Source: a virus
DNA: 37,420 nt
Reading direction: 5' to 3' (one strand)
Virus record (IMG/VR): IMGVR_UViG_3300032053_000226
Coordinates: 1-37,420 of that record
This document shows, piece by piece, positions 2 through 34,537 of this stretch (within the stretch, counting starts at the first letter, position 1; each line of letters opens with the position of its first letter). Both the position numbers and the translations under genes were made by a program. Below the pieces are notes generated by a model, which saw only the letters and a program-made list of their open reading frames with translations, was not told the DNA's origin and searched no databases.

Positions 2-730
2 TCGACAGAATGGATTGCAGCGCTTGACTTGTTTACTGCAAAGGTGACAGCGGCAGAGCGAGAGCGGGCTGGGAGAGTGTGTGATGACGAGGCTCGAATA
101 TTGCAAGCGGAGGTGGGGCGTGCAAATGGATTGGCGGCAGCGTGGAAGCTAACCCATGACGCTGTGCTGCGTAGGCTGGAGGCAGCACCCCAAGCAACAG
201 CACCGAAGCGAATCACCGCGCAGGCGGCAGAGGAAATGGGCGCAAGGGGGGCAAAGCCAACAGAGGCAGAGCGCCTTTTATTTGAGGCGTGGATGAAGGG
301 CCATTGCTGGAAGGTGCAGGGCACTTGGAGTGGCGAGCAGTACATCCACGAGTCCGAAACTAGCGGCATTCCCCACGCAGGGGCAATGAATACCCGCCAG
401 TTGTGGGCAGCATGGCGGGACCGCGCAGCCCTAGCAGCACCCCAAGCACCAGCGCAGCCTGTCGGGACAGTAAGCGAAACATGGGCGCATTGGCCTGAGC
501 GTGGGAACGTACCTGCTGTGGATTGGGCTAATGACACTCCCCCACTAGGCGGAACTAAGCTCTACGCAGTGGCAGCACCCCAAGCACCAGCACCGCTGAC
601 GGGTGAGCAGATGGGCAAGCTGTATCGACAGTCTGCCTTGCAAGATCGAATCATGGTGCGCGGCGATTGGGAGCAAGGTGTACGCGATGGTGAGAAAGCT
701 CACGGGATTACGGGGGAGGCACAGGGATGA
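2..730 (+). CDS. Repeat-containing phage protein, 5' end outside window
   Basis: The frame is open from base 2. The first possible start, TTG at 29, has no convincing ribosome site and falls inside helical-looking sequence, so the gene probably begins upstream and this is its C-terminal 242 residues. Alanine/proline linkers reading AAPQA occur three times and separate short modules. The last module (GEQMGKLYRQSALQDR onward) and the linker layout resemble the modular Ea22/DUF551-like accessory proteins of lambdoid and betaproteobacterial phages. That is resemblance by eye, not a family assignment, and the function is unknown. It overlaps the Lar-like gene by 4 nt (ATGA) and is the first visible member of the early operon. 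Confidence 0.6.
   Translation, partial: STEWIAALDLFTAKVTAAERERAGRVCDDEARILQAEVGRANGLAAAWKLTHDAVLRRLEAAPQATAPKRITAQAAEEMGARGAKPTEAERLLFEAWMKGHCWKVQGTWSGEQYIHESETSGIPHAGAMNTRQLWAAWRDRAALAAPQAPAQPVGTVSETWAHWPERGNVPAVDWANDTPPLGGTKLYAVAAPQAPAPLTGEQMGKLYRQSALQDRIMVRGDWEQGVRDGEKAHGITGEAQG
182..586 (+). repeat. Three in-frame copies of a 15-bp repeat
   Basis: The sequence gcagcaccccaagca occurs exactly at 182-196, 434-448 and 572-586. The spacings (252 and 138 bp) are multiples of three, so each copy encodes AAPQA. An 11-base match recurs at 1737-1747 in another gene. The copies mark linkers between modules and could serve as short homologies for module shuffling. Confidence 0.8.
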
Positions 731-10254: not shown

Positions 10255-10280
10255 CCCCAGCATGTGCTGGGGTTTTTCTT
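10255..10280 (+). terminator. Rho-independent terminator after the SSB-like gene
   Basis: A perfect inverted repeat, CCCCAGCA (10255-10262) and TGCTGGGG (10265-10272), is followed directly by TTTTTCTTTCTT. It lies 23 nt after the SSB-like stop and 15 nt before the primase-helicase start. It probably ends or attenuates + strand transcripts so that the SSB-like protein is made in excess. Confidence 0.85.
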
Positions 10281-13258: not shown

Positions 13259-13707
13259 ACACGATCGAAGACGAAATCAAGGCCAAGGGCCTGACCGCCC
13301 CGCGCGTTACGCCGGACGACCTTGAGGCGAACATTGCCAGTGAGCATTACTTCACTGCGTATGACGGCCGATACGGCGCAATTCAGAATGGTAGTTATGT
13401 GGGTCGTGAGGTGCCGAAGGCAAACGACGACGATCTGGTGTCACTGGAACTCCTGACCTTCTGCGTTCTGGTGCTGCGCAACGGCTTCACCGCTACCGGG
13501 GAAAGCGCATGCGCCAGCCCGGAGAACTTTGACCCCGAGATTGGTCGCAAGATCGCCCGGGGCAATGCCAAGGAAAAAATCTGGCCTCTGATGGGCTACG
13601 CGCTCAAGGAGCATCTGCACGCCAACGCGGCGCGAAAGGCGCGTGCTGCGCAGTTTGACGCCAGCATTCTGATAAAACCCAGTGAGCAGATCGGCGGTGC
13701 AGCATGA
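13255..13707 (+). CDS. Gp49-family phage protein
   Basis: A 150-residue protein with the distinctive block LLTFCVLVLRNGFTATGESA, CASPENFD, EIGRKIARGNA and KIWPLMGYALKEHL. This identifies the Gp49/66 family found in many proteobacterial phages, where it usually sits near the end of an early operon. The family has no established activity; the Cys residues in TFCVLVL and ACAS are conserved and might matter. SD GCAGGAG and an ATGA overlap set the start at 13255. Followed by a DUF2829 gene, a frequent partner. Confidence 0.85.
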   Translation: MNTIEDEIKAKGLTAPRVTPDDLEANIASEHYFTAYDGRYGAIQNGSYVGREVPKANDDDLVSLELLTFCVLVLRNGFTATGESACASPENFDPEIGRKIARGNAKEKIWPLMGYALKEHLHANAARKARAAQFDASILIKPSEQIGGAA

Positions 13708-13937
13708 ACTTTGGAAACGCACTGGAGGCGGTTAAGCACGGAGAAAAAGCAGCCCGAGCGGGATGGAACGGGAAGGGCATGTGGATCGAACTGCAGCGCC
13801 CGGACTTACACAGCAAGATGACTTTGCCGTATCTGTACCTGAACTACCTGAAGGATTCTGTGAACACCCCCGGGGCCAGAGTTCCGTGGCTTGCGTCCCA
13901 AACAGATATTCTGGCCGAGGACTGGGCCCTGCTCTGA
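13704..13937 (+). CDS. tad2: DUF2829 / Tad2-like anti-Thoeris protein
   Basis: A 77-residue protein matching DUF2829 end to end: MNFGNALEAVKHGEKAARAG, then WNGKGMW (21-27), a short middle with an LPYLYL strand, and PWLASQTDILAEDW (61-74). Tad2, from this family, counters Thoeris defence by sequestering the cyclic ADP-ribose signal, and other members bind further immune nucleotides. Whether this copy does so is inference; many DUF2829 proteins are untested. It is the last gene of the + strand block. ATGA overlap with the Gp49 gene; its stop abuts the stop of the opposing HNH gene with no spacer. Confidence 0.75.
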   Translation: MNFGNALEAVKHGEKAARAGWNGKGMWIELQRPDLHSKMTLPYLYLNYLKDSVNTPGARVPWLASQTDILAEDWALL

Positions 13938-14195
13938 TTACTTCATCCCAGCGTTTTTAGTCCGCGCAAACGAGCGGTTCTGAGACGCTGGGACAGCGCG
14001 CAGATTGGAGGGGGCATTCGTGCCCCCTTTTACTATGGGGCGTGAGTGGTCGACATCCTTGCCGTCACCCTTTTTGACCAGCCCCTTCTTCTCCATCACC
14101 GCGCGGGCAGCATTGCGGGCGGCACGGTTTTTGATTTGCTCCGGCTTTCCTCCATAGTTCTTGTATTCGTCGGCGTAATTTCTTGCGGTTGCCAT
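13938..14195 (-). CDS. Small HNH-like protein
   Basis: An 85-residue basic protein with one half of an HNH-type core: KGDGKDVDHSRPIVKGGTN, SNLRAV and SQNRSFAR. D49-H50, N60, N64 and N73 are the candidate metal and substrate residues. Small proteins with this VDH...GGTN..SNL...S.NRS pattern are common in phages as HNH or HNH-like proteins, but cleavage activity is seldom shown. SD GAGGAG sets ATG 14195, which overlaps the stop of the large LPD38 gene (TGATG). It is the last gene of the late block and its stop abuts the + strand block. Confidence 0.75.
   Translation of the reverse strand: MATARNYADEYKNYGGKPEQIKNRAARNAARAVMEKKGLVKKGDGKDVDHSRPIVKGGTNAPSNLRAVPASQNRSFARTKNAGMK
13946..13993. repeat. 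9-bp inverted repeat at the convergence point
   Basis: TCCCAGCGT at 13946-13954 is matched by ACGCTGGGA at 13985-13993, separated by 30 nt. It lies within the 3' end of the HNH gene, immediately before the terminator. There is no T-tract on either strand, so it is not itself a canonical terminator. Confidence 0.5.
14010..14031 (+). terminator. Rho-independent terminator of the + strand operon, inside an opposing gene
   Basis: GGGGGCA (14010-14016), a TTCG tetraloop, and TGCCCCC (14021-14027) are followed by TTTT. It lies 72 nt after the last + strand stop. On the - strand there is no T-run after the stem, so it acts on rightward transcripts only. The same bases encode residues 55-62 of the HNH-like protein. 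Confidence 0.8.
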
Positions 14196-17100
14196 CAGTC
14201 TTCTCCTCGGGCTTCGTTGATACGTTCGTTGCGGCGGGCCAGCAGCTCGTCGCGCTTCTTGGCGAAAGCTACCCAGTCGGGGTTTTCGTAGCGAGCTTCT
14301 GCCCTGCGTAGTTTAGCAATTTCTTTGTCGAACTCCGCCTTGATGCTTCGGGCAGCGATGGATTGTTGGATGGCTGCGGCGTCCGTGTTGAATGTGTAGA
14401 GCTGGAGGTTCAGGCCGCCCAGCTTGCGCGCGACCTCCAGACTGGACACAGGGTTACCCGCGAGGTCCAGCTCCGCCTTGCCCCGGCCGCCCGCCGCCTT
14501 GGTGGCGACATCCACTGCCCCCGGGGTCCAACCCGGTGTGAAGGTGGCGCCCATGAACTTGGCCCGATCCACCGCGCCTTCCCAGTCGCTGTCCGTGGGC
14601 GGTGATAGTTTCTTGCCGGTGAAGGGGTCGACGCCGCCCACGAGGCCGAGGACAGTGTTGATGAACGGGCCGCCCGGAGTAATGGGCTGTGGCCAGTTGT
14701 TGATGCCCAAGAAGCCTTCTGGCTGTTTATCGAGCCAGTTACCAGTGGGCACGTAAGCGCCGAGCTTGAAGTACACGGGATTCTTCTCGTCGCCCATGAA
14801 GGGTACGCGGATGTAGGCGTGGGGGCCGACGTTCCACAGACGTTCCCGATACTGCTCCGGGCCGCGCTTGCGCAGATCGTCGTCCTCGTCGCCGCTCGTT
14901 GCGGCCTCCAATATGGAGTAGGCCAGCAGCACATTGACCAGCTTCCAAGGCTTGTGCAGAGCTATGTGGCCCAGCACCGGCATGATGGCGTAGGACCATG
15001 ACACGAAGGGCAGCACCGACTGGCGCAGAATCTTCACGGCCTTGGAGTCGATGTCGTAGTCGAGGAACGCGAAGCGCGCGAAGTTGCCCGCCTCCTTGAA
15101 CTCCTCTGGGGTCAGGTAGCTCTTACCCTTGCGCGTGGCGATCTCGCCGGATTTGGACAGGAACGCAGCAAGGCGGAACGCGTTGTCTTCGGCGGCGTAC
15201 ATCGCGACGATGCGATCGTCGACCTTGCCGGCCATGTTCACACCCTCTGTGCCCCACTTCGCCATCTGCTCGGCCTTGGCTTTCTCGATGCCTGCCCACG
15301 CGGTCACCTTGGCGTAGACCCCCGACGGCTCGTTCTGGGACGCAGCGGACTTGTAAGCCTCGTACAGAGACTTCTTGACTTCGGTGCTGGAGAAGTCGCC
15401 CAGCATAGCGCCAGAGTTCATGAACGCGTGCATGAGGCGGCGCTCCTCGGGCTTCATCTTGTTCGGGTTGAGGTTGTACTCGAACAGCAGCCGTGTGGCC
15501 TGTGCCACGGTCGGCATGGGGATGTCGTGCAGCATGGCCAGCGTCAAGTTACTGGCTACGTTGGTGATGTGCGTGCCGGGGTTGTAGACCGTCTTGGCCT
15601 TCTTGAACACCCGCATCGTAGTGTGCAGGGCGGCTACATCGTGCAGCGGGCGGCGGTCGGTCATGTCCTGCACAGCGGCCCAGACGTCAGAGCGTACCAG
15701 CTTCCCTTGGAGGTCGCCGTAGGTGCCCATGGACACTTCGGTGCCGTCGTCGAGGGTATGCGTGCCCCCCTTGGGGATTTGCACCCACTGGTGGCGACTG
15801 CGATAGATACCTTGCAGGCGCCCAGATTTTGCCTCGGGGTCGGACAGGTTGAGCACGGAGTCCGGGGCCACGTCGACCCCCGTAGCCTTGGAGATATCCT
15901 TGACGGAGTCGAACACCACCATGTCAGCATCGCCTGCCTTGGACGCTATTGCGCTGGTCAGGTTGTTCGATGCGTGATTCGCAGCCAGAATGGCCATGGT
16001 GTTGCGCAGGGCGTTGGCGGCCTCGTTGGCTTTGCCGTCCAGCACAGCCTGTTCGGCGCTGCGGTATGCGGTGAACCGCTGGGTGCCCTTGTCCGCGCCG
16101 CGGCCGGTGTGGGTCCAGACGAGGCCATCGCTCTTGAGCACTGTGCCGGCCGGGGGCTTGTCCAGCATGGATTCGTGTATGAATCCGGCGATCTGGGGGT
16201 TTCCATCTGCATCCAATTTGTTAGGCTCCACCAACTGGTAGAACTTGCCATCCGGCACCAGATCGCCGCGCGCATCCAGTGGGGCGTAGATGTTCTCGTT
16301 GAGCTGACTGTCAGTCTTCTGTGAGGCCAGCTCGTTGATCTTGCGAGAACCCAGCGCGCGGCTGGCCACATCGTCGGCGGTCTTGGCGAAGATCATGGAC
16401 TCTGTGAATTTCAGGTCCCGGAAGAAACGCTGTGCCGCCTCGGACTTGAGCCCGGCGACGTACTCGTTGCGGTGGTCCATGACCATGTCCGCCAGCTCGC
16501 GCGCCTCGGCATTACCTTTCAGGGCCGCCTTGTCGCCGTCGAGATACTTCAGGATGTCCAGCACCTCTGCGGAGGGGCGCGAGGCAATCTTGTTGGCCAG
16601 TGCGTCAGTCACGATACCGCTGATCTGCTTCTCACCCTTGTACTGCTGGAACCACTCGCGCATCATGATCGGCACGTTGAAGTTGGCGTTGACGTACCCG
16701 ATGTACTTAGACAGCGCAGGGGACTTGTCTTTCACGAAGTCAGCTACTTTGCCGGCCGCCGCGTTGAATTTCTCAGGCACCTTGTCCCAGCCCATGGCCT
16801 TGAACACATGCTCGGTGATGATGTTGGGCATCAGGTTCTTGGAGAACTTCGTTAGCTCCACAGTCGGCTCTGCGCCGGGCTGGGCAGATATAGATTCAGG
16901 AGTGGAGGACTGGACGGCGGCGTAGAGCACGTCATCTTTCAGTTTTGCACCCTTGCCGGGGGCACGTTCGCCCTTGGCGTCGGCTGCCTCCTCCAACAGC
17001 TTGATGGTGCTATCCAGCACATCGTTGGCTACCGTGTCCCGCACGCCGAGGAAGTTCTGCACCAGCGAGGTGATCCGCTTCCACAGGTCGGACACCGCCC

Positions 17101-20100
17101 CAAGGAACCCGGTCTTGTCGGATGACTTAATCTGGGTCAGGGCAACGTTGAACTCACGCAGGGTAGCGCCGTAGGAGACCAGTTCCAGCACGGCATCCAG
17201 CGGGTTCTTTTTCTCCAGTTTCGCCAGCACGTCATAGACTTCCTGTGCCTTGGGCGAGAGCTTAGACCGGTCGTATGCCAGCACGGTTTTCAGGGACTGC
17301 TTGAGCTTGGTAACGGCGGCGTGGTTGGGGTGCTTGTGCACGTACCACTGCAGTGCTGCGTGCAGTGCCTCGTGGAGGACTACCTCGGGGGAGGAAGTTT
17401 TGGAGATGTAGATGGTGTCCGACTTGGGGTCGTAGTATGGGGAGCCGGAGGTTATGAACTCCAGCTTGGGCATCGTCTTGCCCCCCTTGAGCGCGGTCGC
17501 GATCGCTGAGGACAGGAATGCCTCGAACTGGGTCCCATGGCGGCCGATGTAGTTCAGCACCCCCACGAGGCCGGTGTTCTCTTTCTGGCGGGCGTCGTAC
17601 TTCTCCTGCGACTCCCTGCCCTTGGGGCGGGAGTTCTCGCCCTCGATGGCTGCGCGTTCCAGTGGTTCTGTCTCGACGCCACGCTTCTGGGTCTCCCGGG
17701 AGTTGCGGATTTCCCCGGACCGCACTGCCGCGATGTTCTCGGGGGTGTCCAACACGCCGTCCACATACTCTTTCCACGCCCGACTGAGCATGGTGTCGAT
17801 GGTGGTTTCCTTCTTAGCCTTGTCGACATTCTTTGTGCCGATCGTCTGCACTCGCCCCTTCAATACGGCCACCAGAGCGTTGGCGTTGGGCATGCCCCCG
17901 GCGGCATCCACAAACTCCTTGAGCGCAGACGCAAGGCGCACTTGCACTTCACGTACGTCCTGTGCGGTCTTGGCGCCGACGGCGTTGGCCTGCGTGTTGC
18001 CCGAGGTCTCGCGGGTTTCCCCGGGGCTCTTTTTGAGCAGCGCCTTGGATGCGGTGGGCGTCCGGTTGGAGACGTTGTTGTAGTGGTCCTTGGCCAGCTC
18101 AATAATCTTGTGCGCTGCATCGCGCACCGCGATCATCTGCGCCATGTACTTGTCCTCGGTAGCAGCATCGGGGACCATTGACTTCTCACCGTACGCGCGG
18201 GGCGTAGCTGGCGTGCCGGACTTCGTGAATGGTGCTTTGATCGCCCGCATGATGCCGGACAACACCTGCTTGGGCATGGTGATCTTGCCACGAACGCGAG
18301 CGGGCTGCGAGGATACCGAGGCTTCGAGGTCAGCAAGGATCGTGCCAAGCTCGGAAGTGTCTTTGGAGGACATTGTCCGGGGCGCGGGCTTCGCCCCTTG
18401 TGCTGCGGCCTGCGTTGGCGCCATCTTCTCTGTGATTGCATTGGCGATCTGGGTCTTGGTCATGCGCCCCTTGACCTGCACACCCAGTTCCTGTGCCTTG
18501 AGAGCCAGCTCGGTGCGGGACATAGCGCCCATGTCGGCCGGCGAAAAAGCTCCCGCAGCCGGAGCCGCGGGAGTAACAGGGGGGGCAACCGCAACAGGAG
18601 AACCCTCTGAGGGAGACGGCTCCAGTGTATCACGGCCGGTTACGGCGGCGATGCGTTGCTCGGCGAGGGCTTCCCGACGGGCTTGCTCTGCATCACGGGT
18701 GGCTTGCGCCTGCCCGGCGGCGGCGCGCTGCTCATCCACGGACTGGTATCCGCCCTCAAGCGTCTGCTGCGACTGGGGCATGTTCTGCCATGCCGCACCT
18801 GCCTGCCCTGCGGACACTGGTGCCCCGGGGGCGCCCTGCATGGAGGTTAGGTCGGATGGGCCGTACGCCGACGGGGACATGCCCTGCCACTCCTGCCCGG
18901 CAGTGGTGATGGGGGTGTTTGTGGAGTCGTACCCCATAGGGATGACTGGCTCGTTCGGTATGCTGAGAGTTCCGTTGAACCCCAGTTGGAGCGGCGCCTC
19001 GTACCCCAGCTGTGGGGCGCCAGCGCCCTCAGGCTCTGCGGCGGGGACCTGTGCTGGTGGGGGAGCAATGTCCCGGGGGCGGTTTGCGTAGGCTGCGCCG
19101 GCGCCGAACGGGGCCATGAGCGCGGCCATGCCGAGGCCAGTTTTGAGCCCCTCTACGCCTGCAGCATTGGGGTCTTCGTATGTGAATCCGGCGTCGTTGC
19201 GCACAGCGGTCTGCGCTGCAGCTTGTCCATACTCAGTACCGGCCTGCACTCCGGCGTTGGCCAGCAAGTCAACTGCTACCCGCTTGCCGTACCCCATGGT
19301 GCCGTCTTTGACAAGGCTGGTAAGGGCTCGGCCCGCCCCGGGGAGCAGCCGTGCTGCGGCGGCGTCCGCCAGCGACTCGCCGATACCCTCGACGGAGCCA
19401 GTCTTGATACCAGCGGCCTTGGCCGCCTCCGGCGTGAGCCCCTGCTTGATACCCTGCTGGTATGTGTCCCATGCCTCTGACGAGCCCATGGCGTATCCCG
19501 CGGCCCCAGTGCCCACGATGGGTGCGGCGACAGACGCAGCTCCGGCAGCCGCCGAGACCGGGATGCTGCGGGCGCCCTTGATAAGGGAGCTAGCTACTTC
19601 TCCACGTCCGTAGGTATCTGGCATGGAAGCTGTTCGGTCGTACTCTGTAGCGGCGTCGCCCAGAGACTTCTCCAGCCAAGACCCGGCCGGGGCGTTCATA
19701 GCCGCCGCCTTCACGCCCATGTTCGGGATGTCGCCGATGCCGGCCCACGCTTGGTTGGCAACCTCGCCCGCTGCGGACATAAGGCCGCGGTCAGCAGCCT
19801 CCTTATCCATCCACGCGCGTGCCTCTGCAGCAGTAACCTGATCGAACCCCGGGGGGAGCTTGCCGGAGTTGTCCACGTCGAAGTATCCAGCCTTGGCATA
19901 CTGGTCCATCTCAGACAGGTTAGAGGCGCTGAACTCTTTACCGCCGGAGAACATAGTGTCTGTCTGGGGGTTGTATCCGAGCACGGGGCCACGGGATGCG
20001 CGCGGTGGAGGCGCCATAGCCGCCATAGCGCCTTGGGCTGCTTCGCGGGAGCGCAACAGTGCAGGATCAGCAGTGGGTCCGCGACCTAAGCGAAGCCCAG

Positions 20101-20200
20101 CGGGCTGGGGTAATCCCTGTGGAAGAAATGCCCCTTCGGACTTCTGCCCGCCTACGAGCGCGTCGTCAGCGCGAGAGTTAAAGTCGAACAGATTGCTCAT
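14195..20200 (-). CDS. 2001-residue LPD38-type polyvalent protein with zincin motif
   Basis: The largest gene. Residues 200-370 are Ala/Gly-rich with hydrophobic helices. Residues 380-550 are a Pro/Gln-rich linker. Residues 556-592 form a Rho/SAP-like helical motif (SRTELALKAQELGVQVKG). Residues 880-1080 resemble a metallopeptidase: VVLHEALHAAL with HExxH at 943-947, in a DTIYISKTSSPE context. Near 1720-1850, LPFVSWSYAIMPVLGHI and AYVPTGNWLDKQPEG match the large-polyvalent-protein domain LPD38. Polyvalent proteins are thought to enter the cell with phage DNA and protect it. The position next to internal virion proteins agrees. The peptidase activity and third zinc ligand are unverified. Confidence 0.82.
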   Translation of the reverse strand: MSNLFDFNSRADDALVGGQKSEGAFLPQGLPQPAGLRLGRGPTADPALLRSREAAQGAMAAMAPPPRASRGPVLGYNPQTDTMFSGGKEFSASNLSEMDQYAKAGYFDVDNSGKLPPGFDQVTAAEARAWMDKEAADRGLMSAAGEVANQAWAGIGDIPNMGVKAAAMNAPAGSWLEKSLGDAATEYDRTASMPDTYGRGEVASSLIKGARSIPVSAAAGAASVAAPIVGTGAAGYAMGSSEAWDTYQQGIKQGLTPEAAKAAGIKTGSVEGIGESLADAAAARLLPGAGRALTSLVKDGTMGYGKRVAVDLLANAGVQAGTEYGQAAAQTAVRNDAGFTYEDPNAAGVEGLKTGLGMAALMAPFGAGAAYANRPRDIAPPPAQVPAAEPEGAGAPQLGYEAPLQLGFNGTLSIPNEPVIPMGYDSTNTPITTAGQEWQGMSPSAYGPSDLTSMQGAPGAPVSAGQAGAAWQNMPQSQQTLEGGYQSVDEQRAAAGQAQATRDAEQARREALAEQRIAAVTGRDTLEPSPSEGSPVAVAPPVTPAAPAAGAFSPADMGAMSRTELALKAQELGVQVKGRMTKTQIANAITEKMAPTQAAAQGAKPAPRTMSSKDTSELGTILADLEASVSSQPARVRGKITMPKQVLSGIMRAIKAPFTKSGTPATPRAYGEKSMVPDAATEDKYMAQMIAVRDAAHKIIELAKDHYNNVSNRTPTASKALLKKSPGETRETSGNTQANAVGAKTAQDVREVQVRLASALKEFVDAAGGMPNANALVAVLKGRVQTIGTKNVDKAKKETTIDTMLSRAWKEYVDGVLDTPENIAAVRSGEIRNSRETQKRGVETEPLERAAIEGENSRPKGRESQEKYDARQKENTGLVGVLNYIGRHGTQFEAFLSSAIATALKGGKTMPKLEFITSGSPYYDPKSDTIYISKTSSPEVVLHEALHAALQWYVHKHPNHAAVTKLKQSLKTVLAYDRSKLSPKAQEVYDVLAKLEKKNPLDAVLELVSYGATLREFNVALTQIKSSDKTGFLGAVSDLWKRITSLVQNFLGVRDTVANDVLDSTIKLLEEAADAKGERAPGKGAKLKDDVLYAAVQSSTPESISAQPGAEPTVELTKFSKNLMPNIITEHVFKAMGWDKVPEKFNAAAGKVADFVKDKSPALSKYIGYVNANFNVPIMMREWFQQYKGEKQISGIVTDALANKIASRPSAEVLDILKYLDGDKAALKGNAEARELADMVMDHRNEYVAGLKSEAAQRFFRDLKFTESMIFAKTADDVASRALGSRKINELASQKTDSQLNENIYAPLDARGDLVPDGKFYQLVEPNKLDADGNPQIAGFIHESMLDKPPAGTVLKSDGLVWTHTGRGADKGTQRFTAYRSAEQAVLDGKANEAANALRNTMAILAANHASNNLTSAIASKAGDADMVVFDSVKDISKATGVDVAPDSVLNLSDPEAKSGRLQGIYRSRHQWVQIPKGGTHTLDDGTEVSMGTYGDLQGKLVRSDVWAAVQDMTDRRPLHDVAALHTTMRVFKKAKTVYNPGTHITNVASNLTLAMLHDIPMPTVAQATRLLFEYNLNPNKMKPEERRLMHAFMNSGAMLGDFSSTEVKKSLYEAYKSAASQNEPSGVYAKVTAWAGIEKAKAEQMAKWGTEGVNMAGKVDDRIVAMYAAEDNAFRLAAFLSKSGEIATRKGKSYLTPEEFKEAGNFARFAFLDYDIDSKAVKILRQSVLPFVSWSYAIMPVLGHIALHKPWKLVNVLLAYSILEAATSGDEDDDLRKRGPEQYRERLWNVGPHAYIRVPFMGDEKNPVYFKLGAYVPTGNWLDKQPEGFLGINNWPQPITPGGPFINTVLGLVGGVDPFTGKKLSPPTDSDWEGAVDRAKFMGATFTPGWTPGAVDVATKAAGGRGKAELDLAGNPVSSLEVARKLGGLNLQLYTFNTDAAAIQQSIAARSIKAEFDKEIAKLRRAEARYENPDWVAFAKKRDELLARRNERINEARGED
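18544..18573 (-). terminator. Possible intragenic terminator in the LPD38 gene
   Basis: Read on the - strand, CTCCCGC (18573-18567) pairs with GCGGGAG (18556-18550) across a 10-nt GC-rich loop, then CTTTTT follows. It has the form of a rho-independent terminator but lies within codons for the Ala/Pro linker before residue 556. Translation would normally suppress it. Confidence 0.4.
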
Positions 20201-34506: not shown

Positions 34507-34537
34507 AAAAGAAAAGGGGCACCCGAAAGTGCCCCTT
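34507..34537 (-). terminator. Rho-independent terminator after the decoration-like gene
   Basis: On the - strand AAGGGGCAC (34537-34529) pairs with GTGCCCCTT (34522-34514) across a 6-nt loop, TTTCGG, followed by TTCTTTT. It lies 23 nt after the stop of the 155-residue gene and just before the next SD. It would raise capsid and decoration transcript levels relative to the adaptor and tail genes. Confidence 0.85.

Follow-up and report, generated by a model that had tools for sequence, protein, structure and literature searches.

A candidate transcription terminator in the codons of a facing gene, where two phage operons meet tail-to-tail without a spacer

The space between convergent genes is enriched in intrinsic terminators (PMC7566282; TransTermHP, PMC1852404), and transcript 3' ends inside neighbouring genes, excludons included, have also been described (PMC7154746). 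The candidate terminator reported here shares with such intrinsic terminators a GC-rich stem and a stable tetraloop at a tail-to-tail operon boundary, with a short candidate U-tract. However, those terminators normally lie in an intergenic spacer and are often bidirectional, whereas at this locus the spacer is zero, and the signal is written in codons of the facing gene and points in one direction only. As in excludons and overlapping convergent transcripts (PMC7154746), the predicted 3' end falls within the coding sequence of the convergent neighbour. By contrast, these were described in bacterial chromosomes, with long overlaps or read-through, while the present case concerns a compact phage with a predicted overlap of about 94 nt. 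A search of one open-access literature collection returned no description of terminators in facing-gene codons at zero-spacer phage junctions.

The window, i.e. the whole stretch of DNA analysed, is a virus record of 37,420 nt (Table 1). According to the annotation of its genes, the plus strand up to 13937 carries replication functions, and those minus-strand genes from 13938 onwards that could be annotated code for virion proteins. A sequence-only reading of this locus had described two convergent gene blocks with zero spacer, which is borne out, the stop codons of the Tad2-like and HNH-like genes abutting directly. The Tad2-like product is a probable counter-defence protein; in one relative (L101), the corresponding gene is fused behind a gp49_66-like domain. 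The facing 85-aa HNH-like protein belongs to phrog_4590, with a profile match at E=2.2e-20 and the DH...GG.N...N signature in the alignment (GDGKDVDH...GG.N...NRSF), and like this family it ends its operon after a giant gene. Unlike the family, it carries A61-P62, which correspond to the second arm of the hairpin. None of the scanned parts of the giant gene matched a Pfam or PHROG family, and the gene represents a clade marker among the relatives.

Table 1. Genes and structural features of the window around the operon junction
Feature	Coordinates	Strand	Remarks
Replication genes		+	DNA polymerase A, exonucleases, SNF2-type helicase, DUF927/primase-like (1002 aa), gp49_66-like, Tad2-like
Tad2-like gene	13704-13937	+	PF11195, E=7e-24; last gene of replication operon
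Stop-stop junction	13935-13940		TGA/TTA; spacer 0 nt between Tad2-like and HNH-like genes
HNH-like gene	13938-14195	-	phrog_4590, 85 aa, HNH-like DH...N motif; last gene of virion operon
Inverted repeat, 48 nt	13946-13957 / 13982-13993 (arms)	both	With inner stem; last codons of HNH-like gene
GC-rich hairpin	14010-14027	+	GGGGGCA-TTCG-TGCCCCC; antisense to codons G57-P62 of HNH-like gene
Short U-tract	14028-14034	+	TTTTACT; antisense to V55-K56 codons GTA AAA
Terminator-like hairpin	14038-14071	+	Weaker, backup; with TTTT
Giant gene	14195-20200	-	~2000 aa; just upstream of HNH-like gene, virion operon

The same reading had placed a terminator hairpin inside the opposing minus-strand gene. The coordinates, sequence, reading frame and codons that it gave for 14010-14031 all proved correct on re-check, and the placement is confirmed, termination itself being predicted. 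The stem comprises 7 perfect base pairs, 6 of them G-C, closed by a TTCG loop (core dG -13.2 kcal/mol), and further A-U and G-U pairs can lengthen it into the T-run, the 51-nt stretch with its G-U extension reaching a dG of -20. Hairpin and TTTT sit 73-94 nt beyond the Tad2-like stop, and on the coding strand residues K56-P62 are specified by AAA GGG GGC ACG AAT GCC CCC. The GC-rich stem and short loop are those of a Rho-independent terminator, and the U-tract holds four contiguous T (tail score 3.42). The hairpin is absent from the list of a stricter scan, apparently because the G-U stem extension uses up the T's. On the minus strand, its tail is TCCAATCTG, without a U-tract, and no terminator was detected within about 640 nt of the junction, relaxed thresholds included, the only weak ones appearing from 13294 down; a bidirectional terminator was therefore rejected. 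No described RNA family was found in the window at gathering threshold. The hairpin had further been presented as the only convincing plus-strand terminator, which does not hold: it is the best near the junction, and a higher score is obtained at 10255-10272. This latter structure (CCCCAGC-ATGT-GCTGGGG-TTTTTCTTTCTT), the strongest plus-strand terminator-like hairpin of the window, lies where the DUF927 primase gene begins, midway through the replication operon. Another good terminator-like hairpin, AGGGGCACTTTCGGGTGCCCCT-TTTCTTTT, lies on the minus strand at 34515-34536, in the gap between two late genes.

Sites were scored by hairpin energy plus T-tail score. With 23.5, the 14010 hairpin is the fourth-best site of the window and the second-best of the plus strand. 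This score is ordinary for a GC-rich 37-kb sequence, and in dinucleotide shuffles of the whole window (n=20) the top-scoring site was in most cases at least as good. Since most shuffled windows hold an equally good site somewhere, the hairpin is notable by its position alone. Under a synonymous null (4000 draws), in which the protein was fixed and codons were resampled at their frequencies in the window, an equal or better antisense terminator arose anywhere in the HNH-like gene in 19% of draws (P=0.19) and no further than 150 nt from the Tad2-like stop in 1.6% (P=0.016), while a terminator scoring at least 20 arose at the exact 14010 site in 0.18% (P=0.0018), values that are suggestive but not decisive because the site was chosen post hoc. 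Three minority codons come together there (AAA 0.23, GGG 0.21 and AAT 0.17 in the window's codon usage), and selection of the codon choice for RNA is weakly supported.

The sequence-only reading had attached meaning to the overlap of the hairpin with a conserved GGTN motif. The hairpin does coincide with the codons of V-K-G-G-T-N-A-P (residues 55-62), but GGTN is not a motif of the family. In a protein alignment of 80 relatives and the window, GG57-58 is (nearly) invariant, the nearest relatives mostly have G in place of T59 and more distant ones differ at N60, while A61-P62 is not conserved and is essentially private to the window, P62 being found elsewhere only in L044. At the homologous site, L101 keeps the stem without a U-tract, L099 has a partial stem, and L137/L007, with a protein up to 87% identical, have none. 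The combination of hairpin and U-tract is therefore missing in the nearest relatives, and the 14010 hairpin is lineage-specific. GGTN-specific selection is unsupported, and a dual constraint on this motif is rejected as stated, with GG alone conserved, the A-P arm free to vary and the homologous site devoid of hairpin plus U-tract.

A test proposed along with that claim, namely whether constraint is higher in convergent copies alone, gave a negative result for the HNH-like gene and this strand. Across 183 distinct junctions of the gene family (73 convergent and 110 co-directional), cluster-weighted fractions of antisense terminators scoring at least 20 were, for the 0-80, 80-160 and 160-260 nt bins, 0%, 5.4% and 14.7% in convergent loci (nulls 1.6%, 1.8% and 12.7%) and 1.3%, 0% and 21.6% in co-directional ones (nulls 1.2%, 1.1% and 10.4%). 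Strong antisense terminators in this gene were thus not clearly commoner in convergent than in co-directional junctions (n=183); the 80-160 nt bin, home of the window's hairpin, is slightly raised in convergent loci (z 1.5), with very few clusters. Without a clear convergent excess or conservation at the homologous site, the dual selection (protein and RNA) put forward for the 14010 site is not supported. A conserved antisense terminator at KNRAARNAAR (L101, L053, L376), an alternative hairpin of the nearest relatives, was also considered and set aside: its frequency in co-directional relatives is equal or higher, and it is therefore coding-driven.

A degenerate search of IMG/VR for K-G-G-T-N-A-P codons returned 120 stretches, mostly from other families and from apparently noncoding terminators. 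The identical 18-mer GGGGGCACGAATGCCCCC occurs in 7 other viral contigs (L435, L461, L462, L471, L511, L531 and L535), where it lies outside plausible coding frames, with in-frame stops around most copies. On the terminating strand it is followed by a run of T6-7 in most of these contigs, slightly interrupted in L471 and L531, which gives the same hairpin the look of a standard terminator at apparently noncoding sites. By resemblance, these contigs provide the best single argument that the window's hairpin probably works as a terminator. No exact copy of the hairpin was present among 269 relatives searched.

The abutting stops are themselves a recurrent feature. The spacer is exactly 0 nt in 62 of the 73 distinct convergent junctions of the HNH-like family, and the opposing genes come from eleven or more unrelated families. 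Nine of these show zero spacing, the others being primase-like genes at -4 or -23 and one family at +1. With the same (crude) gene caller, zero spacing was found in 0/32 of the other convergent pairs in the fetched loci. Stop-stop overlaps of 1-3 nt being impossible, zero is the closest approach short of a 4-nt overlap, and extreme compaction is therefore the simplest explanation; it must, however, have recurred with different neighbours, unless exchange breakpoints sit at the stops. The HNH-like stop looks like a gene-exchange boundary. Small opposing genes abut it at 0 nt in L099, L101, L105, L106, L112, L022, L053 and L264, and zero-spacer junctions often carry the palindrome GAAGTAA/TTACTTC.

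On the other strand, the RNA of the HNH-like strand past its stop contains terminator-like hairpins within 160 nt in 37% of 35 sequence clusters, against a null of 7% with the codon usage of the locus (z 7.5) or 11% with the facing genes' own usage (z 5.5), a statistic that is supportive rather than final, given the phylogenetic clustering of the relatives and a home-made scoring scheme. In the 0-80, 80-160, 160-320 and 320-640 nt bins, the fractions were 18.5%, 23.3%, 15.2% and 20.2% (nulls 2.5%, 4.6%, 3.9% and 11.6%), the excess falling to null level beyond 640 nt. The opposing gene met most often (MPFTSEKQARTMRAAA...) reached p<0.05 in 24 of 43 HNH-convergent copies, versus 1 of 19 co-directional copies from the same protein family. 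In its A-R-T-M-R-A copies two synonymous positions mostly remain paired, a compensatory GCT/CGA change in L389 and G-U intermediates included, and at least two copies break the pairing; A-N-L-M-R-A copies lose that hairpin, and most scoring copies use another one, 11-36 nt past the junction. Late-strand hairpins in opposing-gene codons exceed synonymous expectation, with the strongest statistical backing, in L346 and L385 (both +107..139), L306 (+14..36) and L393 (+66..95). The window itself has no late-strand terminator of this kind. The wider principle, that at zero-spacer junctions the facing gene's codons harbour terminators, thus gains support on the other strand and in other genes of the relatives.

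We consider, with a probability of about 0.6, that the plus-strand replication operon ends at 14010-14031 in a canonical Rho-independent terminator, lineage-specific and built from the GG codons and the variable A-P codons. Host RNA polymerase would leave the Tad2-like gene and terminate at about 14031, and because the operons meet without a spacer, the terminator has to lie inside the facing gene. The early mRNA would then carry a tail of about 94 nt antisense to the last third of the HNH-like mRNA, an overlap already claimed from the sequence and expected from this geometry. One stem arm would derive from the invariant Gly-Gly codons and the other from the variable Ala-Pro codons, with AAA, GGG and AAT completing stem and U-tract. 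The perfect stem, UUCG loop and TTTT, the first rank among plus-strand candidates near the junction, the partition of replication (DNA polymerase A, helicase, primase) and virion genes between opposite strands, and the other-strand terminators of relatives, far above the synonymous null in facing genes, argue for this reading; against it stand the gene-wide P=0.19, the short U-tract TTTTACT and the lack of conservation and of a clear convergent excess. Alternatively, a palindrome-prone G-G-T-N-A-P run (GGN GGN ... GCN CCN) in a GC-rich gene may fold by coding coincidence, plus-strand transcription ending by collision, Rho or read-through. The frequency of equal hairpins under synonymous recoding, the scores of shuffled windows, the unconserved site, antisense hairpins of the family that are no commoner in convergent contexts and the coding-driven KNRAARNAAR hairpins are all in line with such a coincidence. 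It would nonetheless require the three minority codons at once, with a hairpin falling where the operon end needs a terminator (the P=0.016 within 150 nt) and recurring identically, with its U-tract, outside plausible coding frames in other viruses; we regard it as unlikely, although not negligible. Taken alone, the window's case is that of a plausible, ordinary terminator in an awkward place.

Two further explanations concern the early mRNA. The 48-nt repeat at 13946-13993, directly past the Tad2-like stop and unmentioned in the sequence-only reading, could be a functional RNA element protecting or pausing its 3' end, the 14010 hairpin being merely a part of it. As plus-strand RNA it folds at -28.6 kcal/mol, and on both strands it is stronger than 99.7% of synonymous recodings (P=0.003). 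Over the final 60 nt of the HNH-like gene, the antisense strand moreover folds more strongly in convergent relatives (26 clusters, z -1.0+/-0.24) than in their co-directional counterparts (76 clusters, z -0.18+/-0.12), both groups being phylogenetically clustered. However, the repeat has no T-run on either side, and hence no U-tract after it, is not conserved, and L099 and L101 fold differently there, which makes this element improbable. We find still harder to credit an excludon-like control, whereby the early transcript would overlap the late HNH-like mRNA, the terminator would set the antisense dose and late expression would be delayed. The overlap of about 94 nt is given by the geometry, and regulatory overlapping convergent transcripts are known in bacteria (PMC7154746), but the last gene of a long late operon is a poor position for a timing switch and the overlap has no conserved feature except its zero spacing; a regulatory role of the antisense tail is unsupported.

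Beyond the preferred reading of the 14010 hairpin as a terminator, we tentatively suggest that the clade keeps its operons tail-to-tail without any spacer through repeated replacement of the facing gene, each newcomer evolving synonymous codons that carry the other operon's terminator. Dual coding would thus recur at a boundary of gene exchange, and the window's hairpin would be one instance of it, on the early strand. This clade-level pattern is a more interesting lead than the modest case of the window. If zero-spacer junctions force terminators into facing codons, they would offer a natural and testable system in which the same DNA specifies a protein and, on the opposite strand, an RNA stop signal, and real signals in compact phages would be missed by terminator predictors confined to intergenic DNA, as well as by codon-usage analyses blind to the antisense strand. 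In one relative whose junction has a 231-nt spacer (L086), a canonical terminator (GGGGAGCC...GGACTCCCC-TTTTTT) lies inside the spacer, +10..39 past the HNH-like stop, which is the arrangement expected where room exists.
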